DNA from: Lophium mytilinum
Lineage: Eukaryota > Ascomycota > Dothideomycetes > Mytilinidiales > Mytilinidiaceae
Assembly (NCBI GenBank): GCA_010093605.1
Contig: MU004181.1
Coordinates: 1,426,001 to 1,490,000, forward strand
Length of the DNA stretch: 64,000 nt
Reading direction: 5' to 3'
The translations under genes were made by a program, and so were the position numbers. Below, in pieces: positions 12,301 through 64,000 of the stretch (positions are counted from its first letter, which is position 1; each line of letters opens with the position of its first letter). Under the pieces are notes generated by a model. That model saw only the letters and a program-made list of their open reading frames with translations. It was not told the DNA's origin and did no database searches.

Positions 12301-15300
12301 GCGACCAGGCCCAGGATTTCATCTATCCCAGCCAAACACCAGCTCGTCGTGCAGACTCCCGGTCCGTTTGGGCGGCGTGAGTCCTGAGCAACCGGCTGCG
12401 TCCCGAGCGCTGGAGGCCGTCGCCCTGTTCCAGAGCTTCATTTTGCTCAGACACGTAGATGGCACAGCAGGAGCCACAGAGGTCTTGTCGGGTCGCCGTT
12501 TGTCCCAGCACTCGGGAATGTGCAGCATGGAGGCCACGGAGCGTGTCTGCGGTGCTCCCCTCATGTTCCAGCAGACTGCTGACATGCAGCGGCGGTATCC
12601 AAGCGACTCGCTCCCTCGCAGTTCACCTCGCACGCCGCGCTAGACCCGGCGCTGGCGGTTGGTGATGACGAGCCGGCGGTTGCACAGGTCGGCGAGGTGA
12701 AAGAAACCAATTTCGCGCTGCTAGGGAGCCCTGGGTGCATCCTGGCCTCCCCCACGGGAGCTTGCGTGCATCAGACAGGCCTCCGAATCAGACGGGCCTC
12801 AGTCAGAAGAAGGCCATGGCATGGTGCGGCCAGCAGTGGGTCCGCGGCCATGGATAGACAAGAGCAATCTATACCGCGCCTCAACGAGGCTTCAACGTGA
12901 AATAGAGTTTGTACGGCCACGGTCCGCCAGGTCTCTTGAGTCGTGCCACCACTCGCAGGGTCGTGGTGCATGCAGCAGGGCATGCCAAGGCCCAGACATC
13001 ACGCCCCTCTCACCTGCACTGGGGGCAGCAGACGCCTCCGGGCCAGATCGGGCCGCGACATGTGGTACGTAGGGAGCAGCGATGCGCGCCATGTCTGGCG
13101 ATGCGGGTGCCGTTGTGCTGGCGGCGGGTGTGGGGACGCTTTGGGCGAGAGAGAGGCGGGCCGATGCTCGCGCTGCAGGCGGATGCTTTCGGTCTCAGGC
13201 TGGCTCGCTGGCTCGCTAGCGGTCCATCTACACAATCAATCCAGAGTCAACGGCCTGGCGGCTGGGTCTGATGCTGCAGAGGGCTGACTCGGGATTGGTG
13301 CTTGTCGCGATGGCGTTGCGGTTCCTTGCTCGTTAAACGGCGTCGCGCACTGCTGGAACGCGCTAGGCTCCTTGCGGGGATTTCTGGCGAGGCTCCACTC
13401 CACCTCCTTCACCACCATCCACCACTCACCTCACCTAGTGCCACACGCCGCTCAGCCCGCCGTCTCTCGTGCCTCTCACACCCTGGAGTGCCCAGCACCA
13501 CTTGGAGGCTGCCCCAGCGGGCCACCTGCCACTTGCCAGCCCGCCGGAATCCGTCCAACCCCAGATCTATCTCAGCCACAGGCGCACCGCGCGCGCAACC
13601 ACGCTTCGGGGTCGCCGCGACCTTGCGTCTTGCTCCCGACAACCTAGACGGCTCCTTTTGCCTGATTTCTATCCCCGTCGCGCGTGGGGGAGGCGTGTTG
13701 GCCAGGGGCAGAGCTTGCATCAGGCCACCAGCAGCAGCAGCTTGCTATTTTTGCGCCAGAGGGCAGCAGGCAGGAAGGAAAAGCAGGACTCAGGATGAGC
13801 CTGGCAAGAGCTGGATGCTGGAGGATGGACGCCATGACGATATCGCCGCGGAGGCGACGATCCTGCCTCGTGGAGGGTGGACCTCAGCAGCGGAGATATG
13901 GCAGCGTCTCCGTGGTTCGCGATCGCAGCAGCCTCCAAGGATCGATGGCATCGCGCTCGGCTACCGCTGTCACGCTCGCGGCTGGGCAGCACGGCTGGCT
14001 GCGTTGTGGGCCTGTGAGCCGGGCTGTCTGGGAGAGACGTCAGGTCGTCAACGTCGCTCTCGCTGGTGCTTCCGCTCCACGCGCCATCTTTCCGGGAGCA
14101 GAAATGCATTAGACATGCCAAGCGGGCCAATCACGCGGCCCGCAGCGAATTCCAAATCACAGTTCTCGGCCCAACGTCGGCTCCCCCTCGCGGCCAGCCG
14201 TTCGCCTGGCCCTGTCCACTGGCACTCGAGGCATCCGCTTCGGGACACACGCGTTACCGAGCGTGGCCGAGCTGCCTCGCTTTTGGACGCTTGGCACTCG
14301 TCCACTGCAGAGCCGAACTGGACCGCGCCGCTGTCCCGGGATGCCGGTGCTGTTTTGCTTCCGGGCGCCAGTCCCGTCCAACGGCTGTCTGCGCGAACAA
14401 CCTCACGCTGCATCTTGGTCCACCTCTGTTTGGTTGCCACCCTACGGGCACCGCTCCCTCAGCACCCGTTGGTTCATTTGCACGCCGTCGCCTGCTCTGT
14501 CTGCGGCGTGAGGCCTGATTCGCACGCCCCAGTCATCAGCGATCCGGCGCTTGTCACGGCGATCAGAATCTGCGCTCGGTTCAAAAGCAAGTCTTTGCGC
14601 GGCGTTTGATCGCCCACCCGTTGCCCTGCTGGATCAGACCGACGCCCGCACTCAACGTTCTCTGGTCGGCCACGGGTGATCGCCTCGCGACGTCCATCGT
14701 CGCCTCATCGCGCAGCACGACGCTTGCTTCCAGGACACGAGGGCGCAAGACGGCGACATGGCGGCGGCGGTGCAGCCTTTTCCGCGCAGCTGTCAGAGCA
14801 GCAGTCTGCATGCCTCAATCAATGTGAAATGCTGGGCCGGTTGGCACGCGCACCAGCGCGTTTCCGACGTCTCGCAGCGCAGATTCCGCGTCCCACGAAA
14901 CGATCCCAGGTGCCACCAGGTCCGGGGAGGCTCGTCCCCTCGGCGCCCCCTCGAGCCTGGCTGCTGGACGGGCCAGGTGCTCGCCCTCATTCCTCCCCAG
15001 CTGGCTTTATTGCGTGCATGCCCCATCGAGGGCGAGTTCCCGGCCGACGAGGGTGACGACGAGGGTCACGATGTTGGCGGCAGGGAGTGCCTCATCCTGG
15101 ACGCGCTGAGGCCATGCCTCTGGCCACGATGATGGCGCCGCGGGCTGGCTGAGTGCGACAGGCATCGACAGGTGCGCGCGGCCAGAGGGACCTCGTGTGG
15201 GGGGATGTGACAGTCATGATCAATCTCATCAGGCCGTGAATCGCCCGCTAGAGGCGCCGGGCAGATCAAGGCTGCGCGCACTCCCTTTGCGAACCCAGCG

Positions 15301-20957: not shown

Positions 20958-23423
20958 ATGACCTCACCCTACCCGTACGATCCGGACCCGCAGGCTGTGA
21001 TCGTTGCTCCATGGAGCGTTGCGTTTCGAGTAGGTGGCATAACTTCTTATTCAATTTCTTTTTCATACGGTCTCGTGTTATTTCATCGCCTTTTGATACA
21101 GTGCCTTGCTATAGATATTCGTACACTTTCCTGCCATTGTTCGAGGGGCTCCGATGTACTCTTAGAAACTGTGGACAGTGGATACACTATCATTCTCATC
21201 CCTTGTTCGGAATGCTGAAGATGCAATGAGGCTCCTCAAGCAGTAGTAAGCGAGTGTACGAATCTCTATGAAAAGTCATTGTATATCTAAACACGATTGT
21301 ATTTCATAATCTATAACATGAAGCGTACTCGCCAAGCCACCTCAGACGACGGTAGAAAATTGTATACAGACTAAGGCACGGTGTTGATCATTCTACCCAG
21401 GCACAGCGAGACGTCGGCTTGAAAGTCCCTATCAATTATGTCACCGTACCTGCAGTTTCCCTCAAAGCTGCCTGCTTCTCTCACAACCAATACGAGGACT
21501 CAGCCGCTCAAAAGTGCTTTTCGAACCTACTATCTATAGGCTTCAAACGATTCATGATAGATGTGTATTGGGATACCGGCCGTTCCCAGTGGAGCCTTTG
21601 TCCGGCTGAGATACCTGAATCTGCCTCTCCGTCCGATGATTCGACCAGTATCAGTATCGTCCAGTCAACCTCGTTTCAGTCTCTCATGACTGCTCCGATC
21701 AGTCTCAGAGATGGAACTTTGGCGTCTGATGTAACACCAACATCTTCCGGTCCAGGTGAAGGCCTCTCGCTATCTAAGAGGCAGATCTTCTCTGCTTCCT
21801 CCTACAGCTCCTCTCCGGTAGCTAGGGCCGACTCAACAACAGCTTCAGTTCCTGCTTTAAGCTCCACCAGCTCGAGCAGTAGATCCACGACATCTAGTGT
21901 GGCAGCTACGTCCACCGAATACCCCGTATGTGAAACCCGAATACACTCCTAATTTTGCCTATACTTGACGAGTCAATGCACGTTTGCGAACATCTACTAA
22001 TTCAATCTACCCAAAGACTGCTGGCGAGCCACTTGTGCAGATTGGGCCGTACAACTGTACTTCAACTCTAGGCCTCCAATTTCTAGCCAGTATTCTGTCC
22101 GATTATCTAAAAGATACCTCAACTACCATTAGTGCGAGTCTGACGTATCTTGTGCTCAATATACATGTAGCCGCACCATATTCCTCTCCCACTTCGCCAG
22201 CCATCCAACCCGATTCCTCAGCTCTGCCACAAGATGAGAACTTTCTCGGTCATCTACTCAGCTCCAATCTGTCTTCGTACTTGTACACGCCTACCATGCT
22301 TCGTTCGCAGCGAGAAAATCTCAACGAGAGCTGGCACCTTGACCAACCTAATCTGCCAGCTGCGGGATATTACAATACGAGCACCAGCGGCAACGGCATT
22401 CCCTCGACAGAAAATGGATGGCCTACGGAAACCTACATGGAGTTCAAAAACTATTTACGCCTCGTCATCAGTTTAGGCGCTGTGGACCCTCAGATGGCGT
22501 CTTACGATTTCACGAATGACGCGGACACGATATTCCCTCTTGATGAGATAGTTTCGATGAAAGATGTGTCGATCAGCACATCATCCGGCTCTGTGACTGC
22601 TGGTTGCCTCTTCAACCCTAACATCACCACCGTAACCTCAGAGACCAACTCGTCGTGGGCAATGTTTCCGGCTTCCAGCCTGCCAAATTTGGCCTCAAAT
22701 CCTAACGCTACGATACCAATTCCTATAATCACTAATCTCACATCATGTGGAATATCTCCATTATTGAACGTCAGCCTCTCGAATACAACCGCGGACACCA
22801 ACCCAATAGCGTACCTCTCATTCGCCCACTCGACTCTATGGAGTTGGGCTCCTGGTTCACCAAATAATAGTACTCTCATCGACGACGACCCCAACAACGA
22901 TCTACGTTGTGCTGCTCTTTACGGTGATTCCAACGGCCGTTGGCGCGCAGTAGAGTGCACATCTAGCCACCGTGTGGCCTGTCGCGGATCCACGCCCTAC
23001 ACCTGGAGTATCACCCCCGACCTCTTTGTCTACGCCGAGGCGCACCAAGCCTGCCCTGATGGTACCAAGTTTTCAACGCCGCGTACCGGCCTCGAAAACG
23101 CCTACCTTTACACCACAGCCCTCGCATCCGCAACTACAGGATCATCCGACCCTGGGGACCCCCCAATCATATATCTCGATCTCAACAGTCTTGATTATGC
23201 CGATTGCTGGGTTATGGGAGCTAATAGTACTTGTCCGTACAAAAACGCGGACAATACAAACCATACGAAGATTGTAGTAGTTCCGACGGTGGCAACTGTT
23301 ATTGTATTTGTTCTGGCTGTGGCGACGTTCTTCGTCAAGTGCGCCTCGAATCGAAGAGATTTGCGAAGAGGGAAGAGGAGGAGGAATATGGCTGGATGGG
23401 ATTACGAGGGCGTGCCGAGCTAG
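20958..23423 (+). CDS. MTC6: Maintenance of telomere capping protein 6 (MTC6) homologue
   Basis: Three exons: 20958-21029, 21401-21925, 22017-23423, encoding 667 residues. The first intron is long (371 nt) but joins in phase to give WSVAFR followed by AQRDVGLKVPINYVTVPAVS, the expected MTC6 N-terminus. Also seen are a Ser/Thr-rich linker (about residues 85-195), many N-glycosylation sequons, the segment ENLNESWHLD, and a cysteine-containing C-terminal region. A single transmembrane helix lies at about residues 617-639 and is followed by a strongly basic tail (RRDLRRGKRRR), so the bulk lies in the lumen or outside. In yeast, MTC6 was named from a genetic interaction with telomere capping; its biochemical role is unknown. 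It is convergent with the GNAT gene. Confidence 0.9.
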
Positions 23424-24926: not shown

Positions 24927-27907
24927 TCAAGCCTTCAAACCGTCCAATAGTGCCCCCTCGCCTTTCTTCTCCACGGCCTTAAACACTGATCCCTCTCCAC
25001 CAATGTCTAATCCTTTTTCGGCTCTGTCATACGCCTCTTCGCTTCTATCCAGAAGAATTTCCAACTCCTTTCCAGGTAATAGACCCCCATTGACCCCATC
25101 GTCAACATCAAACCTTTCACCGTCAGACCTTCGCAGCAACTTTTGAAGGTCTTCTAGCTCCTCCCTCGATCCTAATTCTGCATCCCCTTTTTTGTTCGCT
25201 CCCTTCCCATTTCTCACACCTCCCTTGCGAATTACCAGCTTCTCCAACCTCCTCTTTCCTTCTGCGCTCTCCAGTAGTTTCGCTTCGACAGTGTTTCGCG
25301 TGGCAAAGCGATATACAATCACGTTACGCGTTTGACCAATCCTATGCGCTCGATCCTGAGCTTGCAAGTCCTGCTGCGGGTTCCAGTCGCTATCGAACAA
25401 GATGACTGTATCTGCCGCGGCCAAATTGATTCCTTGACCTCCGGCACGAGTGCTGAGAAGGAAGATGTTGCTCGGCTCCTCGTCATCGCCATCTGCTGTA
25501 CCCTTCTTCCGCTTCCGAGCGTCTGTGACAGCAGGCTTGTTGAAGACCCGGATCTGTTCTTGGCGAACTGATTGCGGCACGCTACCATCAATACGGCAGA
25601 CAGACCAGTTCCGGAGAGAGTTGCAGTAGGACTCGAGAAGGTCAAGTTGCGTGGTAAATTGACTGAATATGAGTACTTTGTGTCCACGTTTTAGTAATTC
25701 TGAAAGCAGAGAGTCTAAAAGCAGCATCTTTCCTGACGACGTGACGAGAGTCTCATCTGGCTCTGTCTCTGTGGCGAAGGTCTCACCACCTTCGGAGGAC
25801 GTTGATATGAAAGGATTGAAGAAGTTGTACGGGGAGTTACAGCATAAGCGGAGTTGCATAATAGGATTTTGGAGCTTTTTGGCACCAATTTGGCGTTTCG
25901 CAATGGCGAGAGTGGTAGCTCGGACCTTCTCCTCGACCGCTTCAGAGTCAAGCTCTTCCTCCTCCGGGGAAGAAGCTTCGGCTTCGAGCTGTGCAAAATA
26001 CTTCTGGTCGCTAACCTCTTCATAGCTCTGGCGTGGTCGACCACGTCCTCGTTTGATCGACACAGGAGTAGCCTCCCGAGACGTTTTGGCACTCTTATTG
26101 GGGCTATCGTCGCCGTTCCCAAGAGCCTTACGCTTGAGACTCCCAGTACTACGAGCGCTGCGGGGAGTACTGGTTCCACTACCTCCGATACTCAAGCGTT
26201 CAAGAGCTTTATCTTCGAGGAACTCCCGACTTGTTCCATCGAGGATAGCCTGGTAGAGTTCCCTCTGCATGGGAGTGAGGGGTGCGAATAGCACATACTC
26301 GCGCTTTCTCGGCATGAGGTTCTCCACATCCATCTTCACTCGTCGAAGCAGGAACGGTTTAAGGACTGCATGTAATGAAGCAACGAGATACTGTTGCCGT
26401 TCTTCCGAGAAGAGGCTTTCGTATCCTTGTCGGTCTTTCAGCGCCGAGAAATCGAACCAGCTCTCGAATGAAGAAAGTTTATCAAAGATGGTTGGCATCA
26501 AGAAATGTAGGAGTGACCAAAGCTCGGTGAGGTTGTTTTGGAGCGGTGTTCCTGCGAGATAATTAGCTTTATTTGCAATGCATTACAAGGTCTAGTAGAG
26601 GCCTGTCTCACCTGTAATTAGAAGGCGGTTGGTGGATTGGTATGACTGGAGTTCCCGAATCAATCGGCAGTCAAGATTTTTGATGCGATGGCCTTCATCC
26701 TGTACGTCTAGTTAGCAGGAGATCTGTTCCGAATTCATAAAATGTGATGCTTACAATTATGATAAACTGCCACCCAAAGCCAGTCAGGAATTTTCGATCG
26801 TTCATGCAAATCTCATAGCTGGTAATCACGACAGGAAACTCGCTAGTTCCTGGATGCTTGAATTTTTTAGTCCGAATCTTCTGCCGTTCTTGTTTCGTTC
26901 CATGGTATAATACGACTGGGACAGAGGGTGTCCATTTATTGAACTCTTCCACCCAATTACTGGTCGTGCTTAGTGGAGCAGCAATGAGAAATGGTCCATA
27001 CGACTTCTTCTCCCGCAAATGGGCCAAAAATGCGATGGTCTGGATTGTCTTGCCCAGACCCATTTCGTCCGCCAATATGCCGTTTATTCCGTTGTTGTAT
27101 AGTGATATCAGCCACTCAAGCCCTTCCAGCTGATACGATCGCATAGTGCCTCCAGTCACTAGGCTAGGCTGACGAGCCGATTTGAGGTTTTGCACACCGA
27201 GGTCGCTTGTCTGAATGTCTTCTTCAGTAGTCGCTTCCTGTAAAGCATCTGCGACATTCGTTTGGGTGGTCTTTTGTTCGATGTCTTCTTTCTTGAAGAA
27301 ATCCGAGATCTTCGCACCCTTCTTGGGCCGACCACGTCCCCGCGTGGGTAGTGACTTCCGGTCACCTTGGGCTTCAGTTGTATCGTCCTTATTTGTAGTT
27401 GCTGCAGCTCGTGTCGCACGACGCTGAGACTCGGCGGCAGCCTTTTCCGCCTTTTCTTCTCGCTTTCGTGCCTGGCCTTGAGTCTTTTCATCCCGGACCC
27501 TCTCTTCTTCTTCTTGGCGCTGCATTTGAGCAAGCATGACTGTAGCGAAAAGCTATAATGCATGAAAAGTCAGAATGATCGAAATGGGCCGAATTCTCGT
27601 GATTGGACATCTAGCTTGTCTGGATGTAGAAACGAACCTTGCTTTTATTCATGAGATGTTCCAATGCCTTGAACTTGGTATCCAAAACCTCTTTCCCACC
27701 CTGAAGATCCTCTTTTCTCTCCTTCTCCAACTGTGCCTCCCTCTTTGCATCTTCTTTCTCTCGACGCACCCGCATTTGTTCCTCTTCAGCTAGCATCTCT
27801 TTCGAGACACCATGATCCACGTCCTCCATTTCGACGGGAGGCGGCGAAGATGCGGGTGTTGACTTCTGTGACGCGGTGTCAGCGGCGGTGGTGGACGAAG
27901 AGACCAT
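24927..27907 (-). CDS. SNF2-family chromatin remodeller, LSH/DDM1/Irc5 type (MUS-30)
   Basis: Four exons: 27907-27638, 27552-26755, 26699-26612, 26551-24927, giving 926 residues. The start at 27907 is the first ATG of the open frame. The N-terminus (1-150) is a charged coiled coil. The ATPase begins at about residue 227 ([12 protein letters not shown]), with Walker A DEMGLGKT ending near 259 and DEGH at 357-360. The second RecA lobe runs from about 673 (VLIFSQF) through [11 protein letters not shown] to DRAHRIGQ near 785-792. Two AT-hook-like GRGRP motifs flank or interrupt the ATPase, at about 161-170 and 552-560; the second lies in a long insertion. LSH/DDM1 proteins slide nucleosomes to allow DNA methylation or repair. 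Neurospora MUS-30 acts in genome stability. The first donor is GTTCGT. Confidence 0.93.
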
Positions 27908-35761: not shown

Positions 35762-38294
35762 TCAACCCGACGGCTCCTCCACTTCGTCCGGCTTCACGGC
35801 ATCGGCATCCTTCATCTCCTCGTCTTTAGCTTCCGGTGGCGCCTCGGCCTTTCGCTTCTCCTCCGCCGCCCGCTTCTGCCGCTCAAGCTCCGCCTGCTTG
35901 GCCATGGCAGCCTCTTGCTGCTTCTTCATCACCGCTTGCCGCTCTTCCTCGACCTTGTCGTTGTATCGTTGGATGATCGGGCCAGCGACAGAGCGCATCT
36001 CCTCGATCTTGCTCACGTAGACGGCCTTTGTTGTGTCGTCGCCCTCGTCATAGAGCCACTCCTATACACCTATTAGCACACCTGCACAGATACTTGACCC
36101 TGGCGATACGCCCTTACCTCGATTGCCTCAGCCTTGGCGTTGACCTTTGCCTTCTCGTCATCGTTGCAGAACTCGGCATACGTCGTGTAGATCTTGTCCT
36201 TCATGTCGTAGATGAAAGTCTCCAGGTCGTTCTTCATGTGCTCCGTGTCCTGGACAAGCTTATCCTCCATGAACATCTGGTTCTCCTTCTCCATCGCAAT
36301 CTGTTTGCTTGCTTCGTCCATGGCAGAGGTGCCAGCGGAAAGGGGAAGATCGCCCTTGCGAGCCTGCTTCTTTACCTTTCGCGTCTTCGGCTTTTCAGCC
36401 TCGTCTTTGGCGTCAACGTCCATTGCCTGTGGGTTCAAATCAATTAGCTCATCTGGCACCAAGCAAACCGCGGACGTAAGCATTACAGGAGGCACTTCAT
36501 GCTTCGACCTTTTCGAAGCGCGCTGGGGTACTGTATGCTCTGTGCTGCTGCTACGAGCACGACCATTGCTACCGTACACCTGCGCGCCGCTACTAAGGTC
36601 AGCGGAGGAATCGAGAGGACGTACATCACCATCTTTCTTCTCGCCCTCTTTTGGCGCCTCAGGTATCGGTTCCTCCACTTCCTGTTCTTCAACGTAATAG
36701 CCAGACTCGACATTCAATATGCCGTGCAGGTTCAACCTCGCTTTGAGTTTGCAGATCATGAAGTCGTCTTTAGCATCTGCCTTGACTCCCTTGACGGAAA
36801 ATCGGCCGATCCAAGGGTTCATCTTGCCCGGAAGAGTTTCTGGCTTGGCATACTTGGCCTCGAGGTCAAACGGCTGTTTCCTGTAGAATGTGAGGATTTT
36901 GGTTGACGGCATGACATTGCCCTTGTTGAAGACGGTCAGACTGGTGTCCTCGTCGGGGATGTCTGGTGACTTCTCCCAGGTGAATTCGATTGGGTAGTTG
37001 ACCATGTCGTGAATGGAGAAGTCTCGGACACGGAATACGGGTGACAAGATGGCGCAGCTAAAGGCGCATCCCCGGGCAACGGCTTCGTCCTGGTTGAGAG
37101 TGAAGGACAGAGGCTTGCCAAAGTATTCCTGAATCGCAGCCTTCAGAGAGGGTACGCGGGTGCAACCGCCAACCATCTCGATGGCGTCGATATCCTCGGG
37201 CTTCAGTTTGGCCTCCGCAAGAGCTTGTTCGATAGGTAGAGTAGCACGCTCAAGGAGCGGCTTGACGAGCTCTTCCAGCTCCTCGCGCTTGAGGAAACCT
37301 CGGACATCGACGTCATTCATGACAGACTCAATGTTCAATGGAGCCGCGGAATTTGCGGAAAGGATCTTCTTGACCTTCTCGCAACCCGCTGCAACTCGAA
37401 CACGGGCCTTTGCATTCTCGTTGATATCAATCTTGTACGTTTCCTTGAACTGCTTGGCGAAATGGTCGACCATGGCCTTGTCGAAATTACGGCCACCGAA
37501 GTGGCGGTCCCATGCAGTTGATTTGACGGCTAGTTCGCCCTTCTTGAATTCGACGACTGAGGCAGTGTAGTTGCTGTGTCCAATATCAACGAAACAAACG
37601 CGCCTAGGCTTCTCTTCTGGGCCTGGGAGATCCAGTTTTGTGATACCGTATCCCAAAGCCGTAGCGGTGGTGTCGTTGATGAGACGTAGGCACTTGAGGC
37701 CGGCAATCTCGGCGGCATCGAGCAGACTCCGGCGTTGTGTGTCGGTGTACCAGGCAGGGCAGCTGAGAACCACGTCGGTGACGGGAAGTTTTAGTTCAGC
37801 GGACGCAGTGGCCTTTGCCTTTGTCAAGAACATGGCTACCACTTGGGTCGCCGTGAACTGCTCGGTCTTGCCCAGATACTTGACTTCTGCCCCGACCTGG
37901 CCATTGATATCGACCAGGTTCGCCGACACATAGTCCTTCTCTATCTGAACATCGGGGTCCTTCAGAGATCGACCCGCTAATCTTGTGAGGGAGCTGACGG
38001 TGTTCTTGAGGTTGGAGATTTCCTGGTTCTTCGCGGCCTCGCCGATGTATCTGCTCTTGGGGCCGAATCCAACCAGGGTGCTGACAGAGCGCGTTAGCAT
38101 CAAGCTTCTTGGTGGGCTGAGGATTTGACACCTACGGGGTAGCGCGGTTTGACACTTCGTTCGTGATCTATAGGGTATTAGCAGATGCCAGAGAAGAGCG
38201 CAAAGCGTGCTACACGTACGACATCGACGCCTCTGTTCCTCGCGACCGCAATCACGGTGTTGAGCGTCCCCAAATCTATGCCAACGACACTCAT
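35762..38294 (-). CDS. hsp88: Hsp110-family chaperone, Hsp88/Sse1 homologue
   Basis: Five exons: 38294-38220, 38167-38136, 38080-36625, 36426-36118, 36061-35762, giving 723 residues, close to Neurospora Hsp88 and yeast Sse1. Start MSVVGIDLGTLNTV is the ATPase phosphate-1 loop, and the splices restore ITNEVSNRATPTLVGF. The nucleotide-binding domain continues to about residue 390, with the VGGCTRVP signature; the beta and helical domains follow, including the basic KPKTRKVKKQ stretch and EWLYDEGDDTTKAVY. The third intron (36624-36427, 198 nt) is stop-free and a multiple of three. A shorter alternative (donor at 36486) would add 46 low-complexity residues not expected in the family. Hsp110 proteins are nucleotide-exchange factors for Hsp70 in the cytosol. 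A step-type heat-shock element lies about 160 bp upstream of the ATG. Confidence 0.94.
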
Positions 38295-38732: not shown

Positions 38733-40013
38733 ATGGAGGAGGATATCCCCCCGTATCCTCTATACAACTCGACCTACCACCTGTATCGCGTCTCGCCACT
38801 CTACCATGGGGACTCGCCAATACTACAAGAGCGCGCCCTCCAGAAAAATGCGCGCCGGCTTCGGGATGTCCTCAAGGGCGATAATCTCCGTGGCGTGCAA
38901 GTCGATTTCGCAAGCGCCGACTCAGCTGTCGCCAATTGCGGGCCTCTCAACGAATGCGAATGGACCATGATCGGAGACGAGTCATCGTGGGATGACTACC
39001 ACCAACAATCACAATCTGAGGAGTCAACTCAATCTGTGACACCAGACACAGCGCGAGGGATCGCGGTGGACCTCTACTATGCCAGACACTCATACAATGC
39101 GCTTCTGTTACGTGATCCTGGAGTCACTACCTCGCCAGCAGACTTCACACACTTCCCCCTGCTCCTCGTCCGAATGCCTGCCCCGATCCGGGAGATATTC
39201 CTAAACTACCTTGCTACGACGTTCGACGCGAAAGTCTCGCCCTTCAAACCGAGCCCCACGTTCCTCACCTCGACCCTCGAATCCCACCTCACACATCTTA
39301 CGGACCCCTCGTCGAGTCAAACAATACCAGATATTATCAAAGTGTTGCAGCTGCAGCTCAGCTTTCCAACTCTGACATCCACCTCCCTCAAAAACATCGA
39401 CATCAACATCGCCCGCGAAGACATTCCTGGCTTTCGTACCAGAGGCGGATTGATACTACGGGAAAGTCGCACTCAACCTAGAACACGATCCATAAATAGC
39501 AACACGCCTTTCATGGCAGCCCTTTCCGAATATCTAGTAGCGCATCTTGCGCTTCGACTGGGCGATAACAAGAATGTCTATATCTCCAAGGTAGCTTGTG
39601 GAGCCTTTGCGCTCTCCACAGACGGGAAAATAAAGCTCTATACACCCCCTCCTGTCACTGCGGGCGGGTCTGAGGACGGTAATGTTCCTACGGACTACTC
39701 GGCTGCTGAGCTGGCGATGCGCGATCTTTACGCTTCTTTAGTTCGCGAGGCTACACGGCAAGGCCCCTTCTTGAATGAAGATGCTGGCGTAGAGGATGCT
39801 CGGACAATGAGGCGAAAGCGTCCCCTGACGGAGGCGGGAGCTTCTGGGAATAAGCGGTTGCGAGGACGGACTGCGGATGCGGACAGAGCGGCTTCGGAGA
39901 CAGCGGGAGCGCCAAAGACAGGGAGAGACAGTATACCTGCTGAGCCACCCCCACCGTACGAATTGCATGATCCGTCATTGGTGTCGACTGCTGTGTCGAA
40001 CACATCGAGATGA
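38733..40013 (+). CDS. fta1: Kinetochore complex Sim4 subunit Fta1 (CENP-L homologue)
   Basis: A single exon of 426 residues starting MEEDIPPYPLYNSTYHLYRVSPLYH, the typical opening of fungal Fta1 proteins (proline/tyrosine-rich, then SPLYH). The middle contains FPLLLVRMPAPIREIFLNYLATTFDAKVSPF and a late conserved FMAALSEYLVAHLALRLG block, followed by VYISKVACGAFALSTDGKIKLY. The last 110 residues are charged and disordered with basic patches (MRRKRP, NKRLRGR), likely for nuclear targeting. In fission yeast Fta1 belongs to the Sim4/CCAN inner kinetochore complex, paired with the CENP-N homologue (Mis15), and links centromeric chromatin to the outer kinetochore. It shares a 438-bp divergent promoter with Hsp88. 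Confidence 0.85.
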   Translation: MEEDIPPYPLYNSTYHLYRVSPLYHGDSPILQERALQKNARRLRDVLKGDNLRGVQVDFASADSAVANCGPLNECEWTMIGDESSWDDYHQQSQSEESTQSVTPDTARGIAVDLYYARHSYNALLLRDPGVTTSPADFTHFPLLLVRMPAPIREIFLNYLATTFDAKVSPFKPSPTFLTSTLESHLTHLTDPSSSQTIPDIIKVLQLQLSFPTLTSTSLKNIDINIAREDIPGFRTRGGLILRESRTQPRTRSINSNTPFMAALSEYLVAHLALRLGDNKNVYISKVACGAFALSTDGKIKLYTPPPVTAGGSEDGNVPTDYSAAELAMRDLYASLVREATRQGPFLNEDAGVEDARTMRRKRPLTEAGASGNKRLRGRTADADRAASETAGAPKTGRDSIPAEPPPPYELHDPSLVSTAVSNTSR

Positions 40014-40260
40014 TCGGCTGTACGTGTCGATAAAGTAGTATACCTCAGGATGGGTTCCGTCTGATTATTATACCCAAATACCCTTCCGGATTCAATCTAG
40101 TCATCTTGCATTTGTAGTAGTAATGGGCTCTATGGGCTTCACGTTTTATGATCGAGAGTTCACGTGCTAATAGCATGGATACAGCCTAGTAGGCTACTAT
40201 ATCAGAAGATTATCTACATTCAGATGGAAAATTTACAACTACATGTGAATCTTTGCGTCC

Positions 40261-43021
40261 CTATTCATTGGTCTTCTTTGTGTCCTGCTGAGCATCAAAT
40301 GCCGCTTTCTCCATCTTGTACCTCATCTGATCTACTTTGGCGAGATGTTGGTAATGCTCCAAATCTTCGGTTGAGAGCGCTCTGTACAGCTTGCCAATCG
40401 CCTTACCGATTTCACCTGTGTAGCGAGAGCGTTAGCGTTATATACGAGCCAACGAATGACTGTTACGAGGAGGTTTCAGTGCAAAGAGACTTACCAAACT
40501 TCAAATCGGGATTCTTCTTCCTGACCTCATCTCTAACTTCAGCCGCAAAGATCATATACGCCGAAATCGGTCGCCGCGGCTTCTTCAGATGCGTCTGCGG
40601 GTCTGCTGACTCCGCATGCGCCTCCAGCTCCTTGCTCGCCTCCTGCTGACGATCCTCGGGCATGATCCAGTGATACCCCCCAAAAACGTCCTTCTTCCAA
40701 ACCTTTGCGTCTTCCGCGGCTCTATGTTCCATCTCAGCCTCGCGCCACTGCCACCTCGTGCCCTCTTGTTCCGCTTTGAATTGGCGGATAGCTTTACGCA
40801 AATCCCACAATGATCCCCATTTATTGTGCAGGATACTTTCTTGTCCGGTCTCCTCGTCCGCCCTGCGCCACTTCGAATTCTTGAAAGGACGGTCCTTAGA
40901 ATCATGGTCGGTAATGTACCGATAGACCTTCCCATCCTGCTCTTTAATGCGCCACACGACATCATCACCGCCAAAAGGAACGCCCCCGAGCCAATCCGCA
41001 CCACGCATGTCGCAGGTAGCGTACATATAGTGCGCAATCTCAAGAGCGGATGTCTCAACGTTGGAAGCAGGATCCTCCTTCTTCAGTTGACGCAAGTACC
41101 AAAGCGGTGTCACGTCCGAGCCGCCGCCGCTGCCTACCATATATTGCCACATACACGGCGCACAGATGCCGTTCTTGAGTTCTTCCTGCCATTTCGGAAG
41201 CTCCTTGCGAAGAGCGTCGTATTCTGGTGTGCCAAAGCCTTTGAGGACTGCTGCGCTGACCACAGGAGGTATGGGTGTTGCGTCGAGAGCGGCAATTCGC
41301 TGGAACATCTCGTCGCGGAATACGGAGGCGGAAGGACGTTTATAGGCCCAGGAGGTGAGGTTGAGGGATGTGAGTACTGGGGCGCATTGCTGCTTACTCC
41401 GTTCTTCTTTTATGCATACGTTCGAGTGGGTATGGTGAGCGTCTACCCATGCGTCTAAGAATGGCTTTAAGATGGGAGTATTGCGGGTTTCGGGCCTCAT
41501 GCAGGACCTTATCAGACTAGGTTCTTGGTTGAGCGCATCAGTGCATTCGGGGCTGCAATAAGATCTCAAAAGACCATTGGGATCCTTGATCATTGGGTCC
41601 AACGTGGTGGTATTGAGATAGAGGTAGCAGGGAAGAGACTGGATTTTAGCCGCGAGGTCATCGAGACATTGCAGTGTAAGCTGGAGATTCTCTGGTTCGA
41701 TCTCTGGGAACGCCGAATGATTTTTACGAATGGCCGCTGCAGTTGATTCAATGGTCTTGATAGGTTCGTCGCCCCGATCTGGTCCATTGCGGATGAGGTA
41801 TGCTAAGTCGCCGGATGGCAATAATTCCCAGTCTTCTGTCATAAGCTTTTTGTCTTGGTAATTCTTGATGGCTTGGTCATAGATACGGTTCCACTCGGTC
41901 GCTTCGCATCGCTGTCCGGCGTCCTTTATCCTGCGGACGTACTCTGGCAAGGACACAGGCAAGCCGCTGTCAGGGCTGATGACCGAGCCCTCCTCCCAGC
42001 CGTTCAAGTGGTTCTCAAACCAGGACAGCATACACCATCCACAGCTTGTCGAGCCGACACCAGGGCCATACGTGCGTGCAGGGGCCTTGAACCTGTACTT
42101 CTTCGTCCAGCCGCCATCGGTGCCGGAACCTCGACTCCCAGACTTCCAGCCGCCGGCTTCTCGCATAGGCCGCTCGGTTTTCTTCAGGAACTGGTCAATG
42201 CCCTCCAAGGAGCCAAAGTTGATGCCATCTAATATGAAAAATCGCTCGTTGAGCTCGATCATACAGGAGCCGTTTTCGTATTCGCTATCACCGATTTTGC
42301 TCTGTCGGCATGTATGCGTATTGCGACGACGCAGTAATTCGATGGCTTCGACGGGCCCTGCCTCCAGAAAGGTGGTATTGAACATGCCCTGATACCCTTC
42401 AATGTTGAAGGATGCTCCAGAGCACGCAGCTATAACAGATTCAACAGCGCTTTCCAATGCAGACTTGCATTTCGGTTCACACAGCTGGGGAACGTATCGC
42501 ATTGGGTCCGGTTCGAAGAAAGACAAGTGCTTTCCAGCATCCCACCCTCGGTTGAAAATCTTCTCGTGACAAGGGACCGAAGAGAGTGCCGCCCATGCTG
42601 ATTGACATTCCGCGTTCTCCGAGACAATTGGTGGATAAAGGCTTGGGAAATCGAGCGCCCAGTTGACAGCCTTAGGACCGGACTTAGATTTCGGTGTCGG
42701 CTTGTAGTTTGAGAGAGTCTCGCTGTGGCGTGCGTGGACTTTGCGGAGGAAGAGCAGGAAGAAGCCAAAGAGAAGAACGACAACACACAACGCCACAACG
42801 GCAATGCGGAGAACGGTCCATGCGGAATGCGGGTTTGGGTTTATAACAGGATCATCGTCGTCCTCGTCGTCTAGATTATCATAGTTTATGTTGAAGTCCA
42901 AGTTGAGGGCTTCGGATTCATCTCGAGGCGCTGCTGGCTCATCCGGGGTATCGGTGTAGGGGGCGAGGCTAATAATCTCAGCCTCGCCTAGAATGCGTGC
43001 TTCTCCTTTCGCCCCGTCCAT
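40261..43021 (-). CDS. Single-pass membrane protein with duplicated Cys-rich module and C-terminal HMG box
   Basis: Two exons: 43021-40495 and 40415-40261, giving 893 residues. Residues 1-66 are acidic, 68-92 form one strong transmembrane helix, followed by basic RKVHARH. A large Cys-rich region then contains a module present twice: PC(x~30)LC.P.C..AL(x~10)C followed later by a CxxCM motif, at about residues 145-345 and 455-625. The C-terminal part is charged, and from residue 813 to about 885 there is a clear HMG box (KKPRRPISAYMIFA, KLYRALSTEDLEHYQHLA). The intron falls inside the HMG box and splices in frame. Neither half is separated by a stop or an obvious internal promoter. An HMG box normally binds DNA in the nucleus, which conflicts with a lumenal or extracellular location behind the membrane anchor. 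The Cys-rich family is not one I can name. Confidence 0.82.
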
Positions 43022-44333: not shown

Positions 44334-45827
44334 ATGCATCTCACTATTCCGTTCATGTGCTCTCTCACTGTATGCGCCTATTCTTCGAGCCTCCCCTGGC
44401 CGAGAGGCCTACCCTTGCCAATTGCTGCAAACAACAGCGACTATACGTCATGTGCCGATGCAGCATGGCCTCCTTCAGAAGTCGGCATGGAGTTAGTCCC
44501 TCGGGCACCAGACGATGAATTGCAAGAGATGCTAGCTGAAGTCGATCATGAGCGGGTCAAAGCTATCATAGAGAAGCTTGTTTCTTTCGGAACTCGCCAT
44601 ACTTTGTCTAACCAGACGGATCCATGGCGAGGAATTGGTGCTGCTCGTGACTGGATAGCTTCCGAGATGCGAGGGTTCGCTGCGACTTCTGATGGCAGGA
44701 TGAGCGTTGCAGTCCCTGGCTACGTTCAGGGCGTTGCGTCGCGCATCCTCTTCCCCACTCTCATTAGCAATGTGGTAGCCACTCTGAAAGGATCCACTGA
44801 TCCTTCACGCGTGTACGTGATCACAGGGCATTACGATAGCAGAGTAACCGACGTTCTCAACTTTTTCAGTGATGCTCCAGGCGCTGATGATGACGCATCC
44901 GGCGTGGCAGGTACCACTTCCCTGTATGACTGTGATCTATTATCCGCTTATATCGCTCTAGTCATGATGGAGTTATGCCGAGTTATGGCATCCAAGAAGC
45001 CAAAAGCAACGATCATATTTGGCGCCGTCGCTGGCGAGGAACAGGGTCTCTACGGATCTGCCTTTCTAGCACAGACCCTCAAGAATGCCAGTACAAATGT
45101 GGAAGGGATGCTGAACAATGACATTGTGGGATCCTCTACGGGAGATCGTAAGCAGAAAGACCCATTTACCATCCGGGTCTTCGCTCAAGGGCCGCCTCTC
45201 ACCGAATCGACGGCGAAGACTGCGCAACGCCTAACCATAGGCGCAGAAAATGACTCGCCAGCAAGAGAACTTGCTAGATTTTCCACAGAGGTCGCGGCAA
45301 ATAATGCGACTGGTATGGACATCGCCATTGTTTATCGTTTGGATCGATATCTCCGAGGAGGTGATCACAGCTCTTTTCTCCAGCAAGGATATGCAGCAGT
45401 ACGATACACCGAACCGAACGAGAACTTCGCCCATCAGCATCAAGATGTTCGAATAGAGGACGGTGTCCAGTTCGGGGACCTTCCAGAATTCGTTGACTAC
45501 GAATACGTCGCCAGGGTCGCTCGAGTGAACCTGGCTACCATGTGGTCCCTGGCGAATGCTCCAGGAATCGTGCAGAATGTGACAGTAAACTCCACGCTTC
45601 TCAGCAACGATAGCCAGTTCTCGTGGCTTAGCAGTAATGATACCAGCCTCCATGGATACGAGATCGTCTGGAGACCAACGACTGCACCTCTCTGGACCCA
45701 CATGGTTCCGGTCGGCAAGGTTAATACCGTCACTCTCCCACTGAGTAAAGATAACGTCTTGTTTGGTGTCCGGGCGGTTGGGTCAAATGGGTATAAATCT
45801 CCGGCGGTTATTCCTTTTCCAGGGTAG
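44334..45827 (+). CDS. Secreted M28-family zinc aminopeptidase
   Basis: Two exons: 44334-44910 and 44962-45827, giving 480 residues. The ATG at 44334 gives a signal peptide (MHLTIPFMCSLTVCAYSSS). The 51-nt intron is stop-free and a multiple of three; splicing restores DDDASGVAVMMELCRVM. Metal ligands are visible in order: His166 in GHYDSR, the bridging Asp in GADDDASG (about 185), the catalytic Glu218 and ligand Glu219 in GEEQGLYGS, Asp246 in NNDIVG, and a His in NFAHQHQD. A C-terminal domain of about 85 residues (HGYEIVWRPTTAPLW) resembles a fibronectin type III fold. M28 peptidases of this type release N-terminal amino acids outside the cell; many N-glycosylation sequons fit secretion. Confidence 0.92.
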   Translation: MHLTIPFMCSLTVCAYSSSLPWPRGLPLPIAANNSDYTSCADAAWPPSEVGMELVPRAPDDELQEMLAEVDHERVKAIIEKLVSFGTRHTLSNQTDPWRGIGAARDWIASEMRGFAATSDGRMSVAVPGYVQGVASRILFPTLISNVVATLKGSTDPSRVYVITGHYDSRVTDVLNFFSDAPGADDDASGVAGTTSLYDCDLLSAYIALVMMELCRVMASKKPKATIIFGAVAGEEQGLYGSAFLAQTLKNASTNVEGMLNNDIVGSSTGDRKQKDPFTIRVFAQGPPLTESTAKTAQRLTIGAENDSPARELARFSTEVAANNATGMDIAIVYRLDRYLRGGDHSSFLQQGYAAVRYTEPNENFAHQHQDVRIEDGVQFGDLPEFVDYEYVARVARVNLATMWSLANAPGIVQNVTVNSTLLSNDSQFSWLSSNDTSLHGYEIVWRPTTAPLWTHMVPVGKVNTVTLPLSKDNVLFGVRAVGSNGYKSPAVIPFPG

Positions 45828-59367: not shown

Positions 59368-62300
59368 GTTGAGGTGGTGCTAGAGGTGAGATGCGGCAGG
59401 CGCAGGTGGGAGCGAAGATGTGGATAAGGTCGATGTGGAGAGTCGACGTGGTGTTGTGGGTTTGGGAGATGTCGCCGCGGCGCGAGCAGGTTTCGACGAG
59501 CGCGCTCTAACTGGGCTCCGGCTAGCGAGTTGGACGGGCAGACTCCGTGCACAGGGGAGGATGGCAGAGCTAAGAAAAGGCACGGGAGGGTGGAGGGGGG
59601 CAAGCTGGGGCGCGATTGTGCGTGTGAATTGCAGCTTCAGGGCCGCGGTGCCACACAAGCCGTGAAACCCGTGGACGGCGCAACAGTGGTGTGGCGGTGG
59701 GCGAGGCTGGGGTCCGTTTGGAGGGGAATGGCGGCGGATCAGGGTCAGGGAGGCGGTATGCAGTGTGGTGGCTCTGTGGGAGGCGACGATCGTTACTGTG
59801 AGGGGCAGCGGGAGGGAGAAAATAAAGGTTGAGAGGGGAGTGTACTCCGGACCGTGGATCGCGCAACGAGGGGCAGCCTTTAGGAGGGGGGTGCGTCTAG
59901 GGATTGCACGGGATGCCAGCCGAAAACTTGCAAACTGCATCGCCAGTGTCGACGTCATCGCTGCCCAGAGATTGTGCCCTTAAGCCTTAATCGGCGCTCC
60001 GGAATAGAATTTGATCTCTGCATGGCCGCCCGTGCACTGCTCCAGTCCAGTCCACCCAGAGTCCCCCAAGTGCCAGCCACCCCGGGTACCCCAGAAACAA
60101 GGCCTTGAGCAACAACAACACTGCCCTTGTGTCTGCCCACGCGTTGCGCCTCGCCCTTTCTTTCACTCTTCCGACCTCTCCTTTCAAACGGCGTGTCCCT
60201 TTGAGGCCGAAGCCCTCCGCGCTCTAGCCCGCCGACGTCCCCGAACCGCCCAACCCCACGGCGACACAGCGCAGCGCGAGCGACGAAAGAAGCATGGCGG
60301 AAGAAGCATGGTGCAATTGGCGGTGGAGGGGTCACACGTCTCGCTGCTGGGGGCCCTCACAACGTCTGCCGGCCTTCGCTGCCTCTGCTGGGGGATCAGA
60401 GGGGCCGCTTAGTCGTAGGCCGCCGAAAGAGCTGGGGCCCAAACTGACACCTTAAAATAGTGCTCCTCATCCGGACGTGTCCTGCTCGAATAGACACTGC
60501 AGCGTGGCTATGAACTGGCATTCCCACAGAACATGCAGCGTTGCTGACCAGGTACTCGGAGCAATTGGCCTTGGGTCACTCACTGGAGCCATGGAGGTGT
60601 CTGATAGCTGCATCTTTAGCTTGCAGTCGACACAACAGCCGTTTCTAGTGTCCATGCAACGACCCACGCGAGTAAAATCATCCTCTCACACTGCGAGTCG
60701 TGCCCGGGAATGCTAGCCCTGGTATGCTGGCGTAGGTGCGCAGCTGTGAGAGATCAACCGCGGAAGACTATGTATATAGCTCCATGTCCGAGCATGCGGT
60801 CGGCCAAGCTAGAGTAACACACTTGGGAATGAGTTTCGCTGGTTCCCGGCGGCGTGTCGATGGTCATTATCAATCATCAGTTGTCAATATCAATCAGCAG
60901 CATCAATGGCATCTTCAGCAACCTCTCGGAGTTCTAATGCTGTGCTGAGCCCCAAACAGTGCCGAGATGGGCCAATCCTGGGCACCTGAAACCGCTAATT
61001 CTTGCTCTTGGGGATTCTGCACCTTTGTCCGGCGTTCTAATAGCAGTCTGAAGCACCGTGGCTAGTCACGGGGGCCGGAATCTTTTCTCACAGTGTCTTG
61101 CTTCTGCCAGGCTCCGTTAAACATGTAGCAGTCTGAGGTGTCCCGAAGAGCCGTCAGCCTTGTCAAACGTCGTTTTGTATGTTTTGATGGCGTGCCGGAG
61201 GGCCTCAAGCGGTGTTCGATCACGCTCTGCTCAAAGCTTCAGGCCTTCTGCGGGAGAAGGCACACAGAACACGTCTGTTAGTCTAGACTTCGGCACGGAG
61301 CTCAGACAGGCGTTGGCGAGTTCTGAGTTTCAAGGCTGAAGGCGTGGAGGCCCTCGCTGTCGCACCACGCTGGCGATGCCAAAGGAAGACACCTACCGCA
61401 AATGCTCTGCCCCTGACCCGTCTCAGCGCACGTTCGGTATATAGCAATATGAAAGCATTGCGCCACAGCGCCGTGTCGGCCTGGAGTCCGGCTGCGAGTG
61501 ATGGCCTGCCTAGAATACGGCTGCGAATGATGACCTGCCTGATTGACGGGCCGCGGCAGCAGGGCGGTTCTCAGGGCAGCAAGAGGAGTGTGACCATGCT
61601 GTATCGCGAAGCTGCCAAACCCGGGATGGAGGTGGTCATGATGGCCCGTCGACGCTGTTCAACGTGTGGCGGACCACATGGCCGACGGCGGCAGCGTGGG
61701 AATGGAGGCGAATGGAGGCGGCCGTCTGCAGCGCTGGATGAGACTCAATTGGAATCTTGGCTGGCCCTGGCTGTGTGTTTCTGTATGCACAGAGGTGTGA
61801 GAGGCTGGCGACGCGGCCTCAGCAGGCGGCCCAGCGCTTAGTGGACGATTATTTCGGGAGGCCCGCCGTCATCGAGAGATGGAGAGCGTCGTCCCTGCCT
61901 GTCGCAGCTCGCAGCACTCGGTATTCGACTCCCACTCTACCACCAACCCCAGTGGACTGCAACTCCAAGAATCTTACGGCACATATCGGGCTCCCCACTC
62001 CTCCAGCAGCTCTGTCCAGCGCTGCCCATCTGCCCAGCACCGCGATTGCAGTCAATGTGCACCGAAGGCGCATTCAGCCGGTGGACTGCTGCACTCCCGG
62101 CTCCAGCTCCTCTGCGCCCTCAGCCTCGCTGTCCCACTGCCGACTCTCGTCAAACACGCGCAGCTCAAGATCCGTCCATCCCGTAGCCTCCAGCCCAGCT
62201 CCTGCCCAGCTCCTCACCACCACCAAACCCTCCTCCTGCCGCCCATCGCCCGCGCCGCTGGCCTCCATCGCCCGCATCGCCTCCGCGTGCCTCCAACGCC

Positions 62301-62768
62301 CCGATCCGCTTCCGGGGTGCTTTTGCTTGGAGCACCAAAGCACAGATCACCGCCCGGTGGCTACTGCACCTCGCCGCCAGGCCGCTCGACCTCCAAACAG
62401 CCCACGGCGGACATCGCGACCACTCGTCTGGACCCTGAAAGACGACTTGATCTCGCCGGCGGACCGCCTCCATTCCTTGGGCCCAGCGCTGGCGACCTGT
62501 GCCAGCCTTCTGCCGCTCCGACCAGCGTCCGCGACCGCGCCGACGACCTCTCGTGAACCGCTCCATCTCTCTGCCGGCGGGCCTCCCGCTTCCGTCGCGG
62601 GCGTGACCCACGGCCTGCATTCTTCTGCGGCTTCAGCACTGAGACCGTGTCTCTGCCGTGCCCACCGCGCCCTCCCTTGCGACGCGACCAGCCGCCGTCT
62701 GCCAGCTTTGTTCTCGACACCAACCTCACCTCCTCCGCGGCTGAGTGCCGCTGCACCGCATCGCCACC
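59368..62768. other. GC-rich divergent intergenic region, HOG1 / G-alpha
   Basis: 3.4 kb with overlapping ORFs on both strands (for example 61757-62833 plus and 62347-62988 minus) that show no domain-like content. The last 600 bp before the G-alpha ATG are C/T-rich on the plus strand, as in fungal promoters and leaders. No RNA gene was seen. Confidence 0.55.
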
Positions 62769-64000
62769 ATGGGTCTCTGCATGAGCACAAACAACGAGGA
62801 TGTGGAGCAGAAGAAGCGCAGTCAGGCCATTGACCGCAAGCTCGAGGAGGATTCCCGACGACTGCGACGCGAGTGCAAGATCTTGCTGCTAGGTACCACC
62901 GCCCGCTCTGGCGCATTGATTGCACATTGCACATTCTAACTAGCCGTCTTGTAGGATCCGGAGAGAGTGGCAAGTCGACCATCGTCAAGCAGATGAAGAT
63001 TATCCACCAGAATGGCTACACAATGGACGAGCTGGCCCAGTACCGCCTTACCATATACAAGAATGTCATAGACTGCGCCAAGTCTCTGATCGGCGCCATG
63101 CGACAGTTCGACGTTCAGCCTGAAGACCCTGGGACTGAAGACTACTGCAACTACTTGATGGACTATGTGGTGGACCCGGACCCCGAAAAGCCTCTAGAAT
63201 ACAAGGTTGGGCAGGCCATCACCTGCCTATGGCGCGACCCTTGTGCGCAAAAGGTCCTCGAGCACTCCAGCGAATTCTACCTGATGGATTCTGCACCATA
63301 GTACGTCCGCTGCACCTTCTGCAGCCTCGCCTGCTAACACATGCAGCTTCTTCGACGAAGTAAACCGGATAGCGTCGCCGGACTATATTCCACAAGAATC
63401 AGACGTGCTGAGGGCGCGAACGAAAACGACTGGTATATACGAGACACGATTCACGATGGGGCAATTAAGCATACAGTGCGTTGGCCATAGTATATTCAAG
63501 AAAACTGGCTAACAAAAGGACAGTATGTTCGATGTTGGAGGCCAGCGGAGCGAGAGAAAGAAATGGATACATTGCTTCGAGAACGTCACGTCAATCATCT
63601 TTTGCGTAGCGCTCAGCGAGTACGACCAAGTGCTGCTAGAAGAGAGCAGCCAGGTAAGACTTCCGCCATGCTTGTATTTGCAGTGCTGATCATCATCACC
63701 AGAATCGGATGATGGAAAGTCTCGTCCTATTTGACTCGGTTGTGAATTCGAGATGGTTCATGCGGACAAGTATAATATTGTTCCTCAATAAGGTCGATCT
63801 TTTCAAGGCGAAGCTAGCACGGTCGCCCCTGGGCAACTACTTCCCAGACTATTCAGGCGGTAACGACGTGAACCGGGCAGCGAAATACCTTCTGTGGAGG
63901 TTCAACCAGGTCAATCGCGCGCATCTAAACCTATACCCTCAGTAAGCGATCCTGTCACATGAAATCGGCGCACTCTTTTCACATGCTAATCAGGAGCAGT
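62769..64000 (+). CDS. gna-3: Group III G-protein alpha subunit, N-terminal part (3' end outside window)
   Basis: Exons: 62769-62892, 62955-63300, 63347-63475, 63524-63653, 63703-63941, and a sixth starting about 63994 that runs off the window. Around 325 residues are visible. MGLCMS at the start gives Gly2 for myristoylation and Cys4 for palmitoylation. G1 is GSGESGKST at 42-50; switch I shows [13 protein letters not shown]3 is DVGGQ at 203-207; G4 is NKVD at 272-275. The N-terminal [20 protein letters not shown] and the [11 protein letters not shown] block place it with GNA-3/GanB rather than the Gi-like group I. In other moulds this subunit stimulates adenylyl cyclase, affecting nutrient sensing, conidiation and germination. 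Confidence 0.93.

Follow-up and report, generated by a model that had tools for sequence, protein, structure and literature searches.

A Lophium mytilinum gene that joins a duplicated Cys-rich transmembrane protein to an HMG box

The HMG box is a DNA-bending domain that is normally nuclear. In the window analyzed here, a 64,000-nucleotide stretch of the Lophium mytilinum genome (C1:1426001-1490000), an HMG box is encoded at the end of a reading frame that also specifies a transmembrane helix and two Cys-rich modules. This locus raises the question of whether the frame represents one gene or two, and on which side of a membrane the HMG box would reside.

The gene is located on the minus strand (43021..40261) and encodes 893 residues with a single intron. 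The open-frame listing gives 852 codons from the ATG at 43021 to 40463 without any stop, and the final nine of these codons are intron sequence. Splicing out 40494..40416 joins the two halves of the HMG box and yields a new stop at 40261. In the spliced model, exon 1 (40495..43021, open frame) encodes residues 1–843 with its last codon split, and exon 2 (40261..40415, including the stop codon at 40263..40261) encodes the C-terminal part of the HMG box. The intron (40416..40494) is a 79 bp GT-AG intron that contains a GTAAGT donor, a CTAAC element beginning 20 nt before the 3' end and an ACACAG terminus, and it interrupts the Gly codon of KFG-E in phase 1. Given this length and phase, read-through of the intron meets a stop after nine codons, and the term "in-frame intron" used in the preliminary description is inexact.

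The encoded protein begins with an acidic N-tail (residues 1–72; 42806..43021), which carries a net charge of -16 across residues 1–66. The N-tail is followed by a transmembrane helix (residues 73–92; 42746..42805) at the hydropathy maximum, which is the only strong transmembrane segment of the protein (best 19-mer, 3.23 at residues 73–91). Cys-rich module 1 (residues 136–375; 41897..42616) and Cys-rich module 2 (residues 451–672; 41006..41671) each contain 10 Cys residues in the same register. Module 2 is connected to the HMG box (40297..40585; PF00505 match at residues 815–882, with the intron inside) via a Trp-rich linker (residues 673–812; 40586..41005) that contains nine Trp residues in 140 residues and is free of Cys. 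All of these features are encoded on the minus strand. The acidic N-terminus, the single transmembrane helix and the single frame, which is open from 43021 to 40463 and continues to 40261 in the spliced model, agree with the preliminary description.

To evaluate the coding potential of the frame, we trained a codon-usage score on 4830 codons drawn from 11 open stretches of the window, leaving out the Cys-rich/HMG gene. Of the 20 overlapping 60-codon segments across residues 1 to 820, 19 score higher in frame 0 than in either of the other sense frames; the exception is residues 481–540 (0.01 for frame 0 vs 0.11). An antisense frame scores above frame 0 in segments 41–100 and 281–340 and equals it in segment 321–380 (3 of 20). 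At the border of module 2 and the linker, segments 641–700 and 681–740 score 0.22 and 0.16, respectively, with the other sense frames at or below -0.17. The same-frame contrast extends through the linker (0.149 vs -0.224 and -0.154), HMG exon 1 (0.198 vs -0.297 and 0.013) and exon 2 (0.32 vs -0.23 and -0.07). Three stretches assumed to be intergenic have a mean score of 0.031 and a maximum of 0.213, and the linker value of 0.149 is within their range. Because presumed intergenic DNA reaches overlapping absolute scores, the support for a single coding unit comes from the frame contrast and the lack of stops. No composition break is seen at the module, linker and HMG borders (GC3 of 0.595, 0.629 and 0.594 for module 2, the linker and the HMG box, respectively).

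The HMG intron is the sole candidate in a strict intron scan of the sense strand across 43021..40201, which required a GTRNGT donor, a CTRAY branch site, a YAG acceptor and a length of 45–159 nt. Because no stop separates the two halves and the strict scan yields only the HMG intron, the reading of the locus as two adjacent genes is rejected as far as the sequence allows. The neighboring genes are ordinary and encode, by Pfam, an Hsp70 protein (36073-38100, minus strand), CENP-L (38733-40013, plus strand) and an M28 peptidase (44334-45827, plus strand). The CENP-L gene is convergent with the Cys-rich/HMG gene, and 247 bp separate the two stops.

The two Cys-rich modules had been described as copies of each other, and the Cys spacing bears this out. 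The Cys gaps are 12, 30, 4, 15, 38, 15, 74, 3 and 42 in module 1 and 13, 24, 4, 14, 29, 10, 74, 3 and 47 in module 2. The gaps of 74 and 3 are identical between the modules, and 20,000 random placements of 10 Cys residues produced no spacing as close. Outside the Cys residues, the similarity is low. A BLASTP comparison gives an E value of 0.002 across 77 columns and 1 of 2000 shuffles equals the local alignment, but semi-global alignment is at chance level (841 of 1000 shuffles as good). As the Cys gaps agree while the remaining sequence has diverged, we take the modules as a probable old tandem duplication held by disulfide or metal constraints. Neither module matches Pfam above the cut-off or a solved structure (best E value, 0.83), and structure modeling of the module was not useful (pLDDT, 37.7). 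Residues 94–672 contain five sequons, a small excess over the 3.13 expected.

The assembly (43.18 Mb in 24 contigs) was searched for paralogues and HMG genes. The membrane part of the protein matches only one other gene, L002 (C10:1581140-1582105), with 38% identity over residues 79–399 (E value of 3.7e-70). L002 resembles the Cys-rich/HMG gene in its acidic N-terminal stretches, single helix and 10-Cys module with near-equal spacing (12, 30, 4, 15, 40, 13, 74, 3 and 42), and its module is 38–40% identical to module 1. L002 differs in that its acidic stretches are followed by basic ones, which make the N-terminal flank of the helix strongly basic, and in that it contains a single module with an extra Cys residue that splits the gap of 74 into 49 and 25, a KPV-repeat tail and no HMG box. 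Module 2 as a query retrieved only its own gene below an E value of 0.78 and not L002, and its local alignment with L002 is matched by 8 of 1000 shuffles. L002, also recorded as L033 (C10:1581140), is located approximately 12 kb from a LysM match (L032; C10:1568786).

A similar Cys order is found in L034, a LysM gene of contig C9, which has a signal-peptide-like start followed, across separate frames, by Cys residues in the order C-C-CxxxC-C-C-C-CxxC-C. This order is also present in modules 1 and 2 and is common among fungal LysM proteins. The L034 gaps of 10, 4, 15 and 3 are near the module values, but those of 19 and 30 differ from 74 and 42/47, respectively. L034 is also unlike the Cys-rich/HMG protein in that LysM repeats lie downstream, no HMG box is seen and alignment exceeds chance for the CxxxC piece only. 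For this piece, 5, 35 and 48 of 2000 shuffles were as good in comparison with L002, module 1 and module 2, respectively, and none of the six comparisons with the remaining two pieces rises above chance (314 to 1968 of 2000 shuffles as good).

The C-terminal domain is the bona fide HMG box that had been claimed. The spliced box matches PF00505 with 64.2 bits (E value of 1.5e-17; cut-off, 25.4) over profile positions 1–68 of 69, and exon 1 alone reaches 22.3 bits. Its best single-box match in the PDB is yeast Nhp6A (1cg7; 71 residues, E value of 4.8e-17, 64.6 bits); HMGB1 chains reach 66.5–68.0, but only over two boxes. In the alignment, the box shares with Nhp6A the Met residue of SAYM and the Phe residue of the FG pair, which we take to be the DNA-intercalating residues. 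In the genome, the C-terminal 224 residues retrieve, besides the query gene, only L003 on contig C3 at an E value of 10 or below, and L003 was termed NHP6-like by us from its short basic frame. Over 70 residues, the box and L003 share 50% identity, with a Trp-to-Tyr change, and the identity to L009 is about 35% over 66 residues. Judged by these PDB and genome matches, the box appears closest to NHP6-type boxes. The pS and pN values between the box and L003 (0.919 and 0.364, respectively; 70 codons) show apparent past constraint on the box without dating the fusion. NHP6 is a small free protein. The box resembles NHP6/Nhp6A in being a complete HMG box and in sharing an intron with L003 at the identical codon and phase; unlike NHP6, it forms the tail of an 893-residue transmembrane Cys-rich protein behind a 140-residue Trp-rich linker.

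The codon and phase 1 of the intron, as judged by splice sites, are common to the box, L003, L008 (contig C15) and L009 (contig C16). The shared intron was considered as proof of an NHP6 origin, and this argument was dropped because L008 and L009 carry the same position, which makes the intron a feature of HMGB-type genes in general rather than of NHP6. The intron position looks old in fungal HMGB-type boxes. An HMGB-type intron inside the box indicates that the box was acquired together with its genomic exon structure. Together with the HMG-less paralogue L002, this ordinary intron supports the suggestion of a gene fusion. The fusion had also been called recent; the GC3 values without a border break and the divergence of the box from L003 are evidence neither for nor against this.

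PF00505 has 19 matches in the genome at an E value of 1 or below, two of which are the exons of the Cys-rich/HMG gene; several others likewise represent exons of a single gene. Fourteen further HMG open frames, among them two exons from a single gene, lack a strong helix (maximum of 1.47 vs 3.23); each frame is limited to one exon and locus, such that a helix elsewhere in the gene would be missed. These 14 frames were drawn from the 19 matches by leaving out L017, L019, L020 and L021, together with L013, which is the Cys-rich/HMG gene itself cut short of its helix. Two HMG-like matches at C8:1521715-1522257 are 0.27 kb apart on one strand and perhaps belong to a two-box gene.

The linker has no Pfam match at residues 672–783 and no second copy in the genome at an E value of 10 or below (C-terminal 224-residue query). 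Its single-sequence structure model is weak (pLDDT, 63.1; pTM, 0.33) and shows strands that precede a long helix. A fold search of the linker against the PDB returned 182 matches at an E value of 10 or below and none at 0.001 or below, and a sequence search of the linker plus HMG exon 1 retrieved only HMG chains below 0.1. An RR pair at residue 719 of the linker and a KKPRR stretch at the start of the HMG box could each be a candidate cleavage or nuclear import signal. In-frame ATG codons are found at residues 666 and 672, at the module-linker border, and at residues 624, 628, 764, 787 and 823. A transcript that starts inside the frame would produce a short nuclear protein of the linker and HMG box, for example from Met672, which is two residues past the last Cys residue of module 2. 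This alternative fits the position of the two border ATG codons, a linker that lacks both Cys and sequons (the linker and HMG box together contain four Asn residues and no sequon) and the retention of the Nhp6A-aligned Met and Phe residues, but the linker of such a protein has no other copy in the genome, and we regard an internal transcript as quite unlikely.

The location of the HMG box depends on the orientation of the helix, for which the charge evidence is divided. The flanks of the helix in the Cys-rich/HMG protein have net charges of +1 on the N-terminal side and +3 on the C-terminal side and favor an N-outside orientation, whereas those of L002 (+6 and +2, respectively) favor an N-inside orientation. 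We place a type II topology first with modest confidence, given that the spaced Cys residues and the paralogue favor the lumen or the outside of the cell for the modules and the protein's own charges favor the reverse.

Our leading reading, held tentatively and at somewhat below even confidence, is that the gene encodes one single-pass type II protein in which a duplicated 10-Cys ectodomain has been fused in frame to an NHP6-type box. The body of the ectodomain would consist of a duplicated 10-Cys module of the kind that is single in L002. An NHP6-type box with its old HMGB-type intron would have been joined in frame as the C-terminus, a direction of change that we infer. Most likely, the N-tail would face the cytosol, with the modules, linker and HMG box lumenal or extracellular, where the basic box may serve as a tail that binds polyanions or nucleic acids, or may be clipped off. 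This type II ectodomain reading is based on the spacing kept by the 20 module Cys residues, the L002 flank charges, the signal-peptide-like start of L034 and the sequon excess. It is weakened by the protein's own flank charges, which point to the opposite topology, and by the retention of the Nhp6A-aligned Met and Phe residues, which is odd where the box bends no DNA.

The opposite topology would place the C-terminus in the cytosol or nucleoplasm and make the protein a membrane-tethered nuclear regulator, either held at the inner nuclear membrane or released from a precursor by proteolysis. The flank charges of +1 and +3 and the very acidic N-tail fit this N-outside, C-inside arrangement, as do the Nhp6-type features retained in the HMG box. 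Membrane-bound regulators are also known, and a 2026 screen for membrane-bound transcriptional regulators puts forward an NDT80-type candidate family in fungi (PMC13294678), in a main text from which "HMG" is absent. Against this arrangement, the L002 flank charges point the opposite way, and the 20 evenly kept Cys residues and the signal-peptide-like LysM gene with a similar Cys order suggest an oxidizing compartment. We judge a tethered or released regulator of this topology to be unlikely. Taken more broadly, a membrane-held NHP6-type DNA bender with a duplicated Cys-rich sensor, either tethered at the nuclear envelope or freed on a signal by proteolysis or an internal transcript, is possible but rather unlikely in our estimate.

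The HMG box may instead be a passenger without a present role, acquired in a recent or strain-specific accidental fusion. The existence of the HMG-less paralogue and the Trp-to-Tyr change relative to the NHP6-like box are consistent with such an accident. The box is, however, far diverged from L003 by its pS and pN values yet gives a full Pfam-level match, a constraint that may predate the fusion, and we consider a passenger box distinctly improbable. The type II fusion protein remains our leading reading. Searches of the whole protein against a viral contig collection (six pattern-matched stretches) and a prokaryotic genome contig collection (nine stretches), and of the module alignment against the viral collection (50 stretches), gave no confirmed match; as the collections are viral and prokaryotic by description, these misses tell little about fungi.

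The architecture is real at the gene level and unusual, and represents a new domain combination. Membrane-bound transcription factors such as SREBP, ATF6 and MYRF likewise combine a DNA-binding domain and a transmembrane helix in one chain, but in the present protein an ectodomain that is probably lumenal separates the helix from the DNA-binding domain. In the open-licence literature, a limited basis, we found no published protein that combines an HMG box with a transmembrane Cys-rich ectodomain, and no paper on the NHP6 intron position. In Podospora anserina, one study reports 12 HMG-box genes, with 11 of the proteins predicted to be nuclear and one mitochondrial (PMC3730723). If the two halves of the Lophium mytilinum protein act together, the protein would establish a new class of DNA-binding proteins at membranes or a fungal case of an extranuclear HMG box. 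If they do not, the gene would neatly illustrate the in-frame joining of an HMGB-type exon pair with an unrelated protein.

Other frames were observed in the window. Two long G+C-rich frames on the plus strand (13272-14609 and 61742-62833) have no Pfam match at an E value of 0.001 or below and may not be genes. A plus-strand frame at 21969-23423 contains a partial MTC6 TIM-barrel domain (PF25506, 57.3 bits) and, by eye, many sequons and a hydrophobic C-terminal stretch. An SNF2-family remodeller is encoded across two open frames on the minus strand at 24927-27552.
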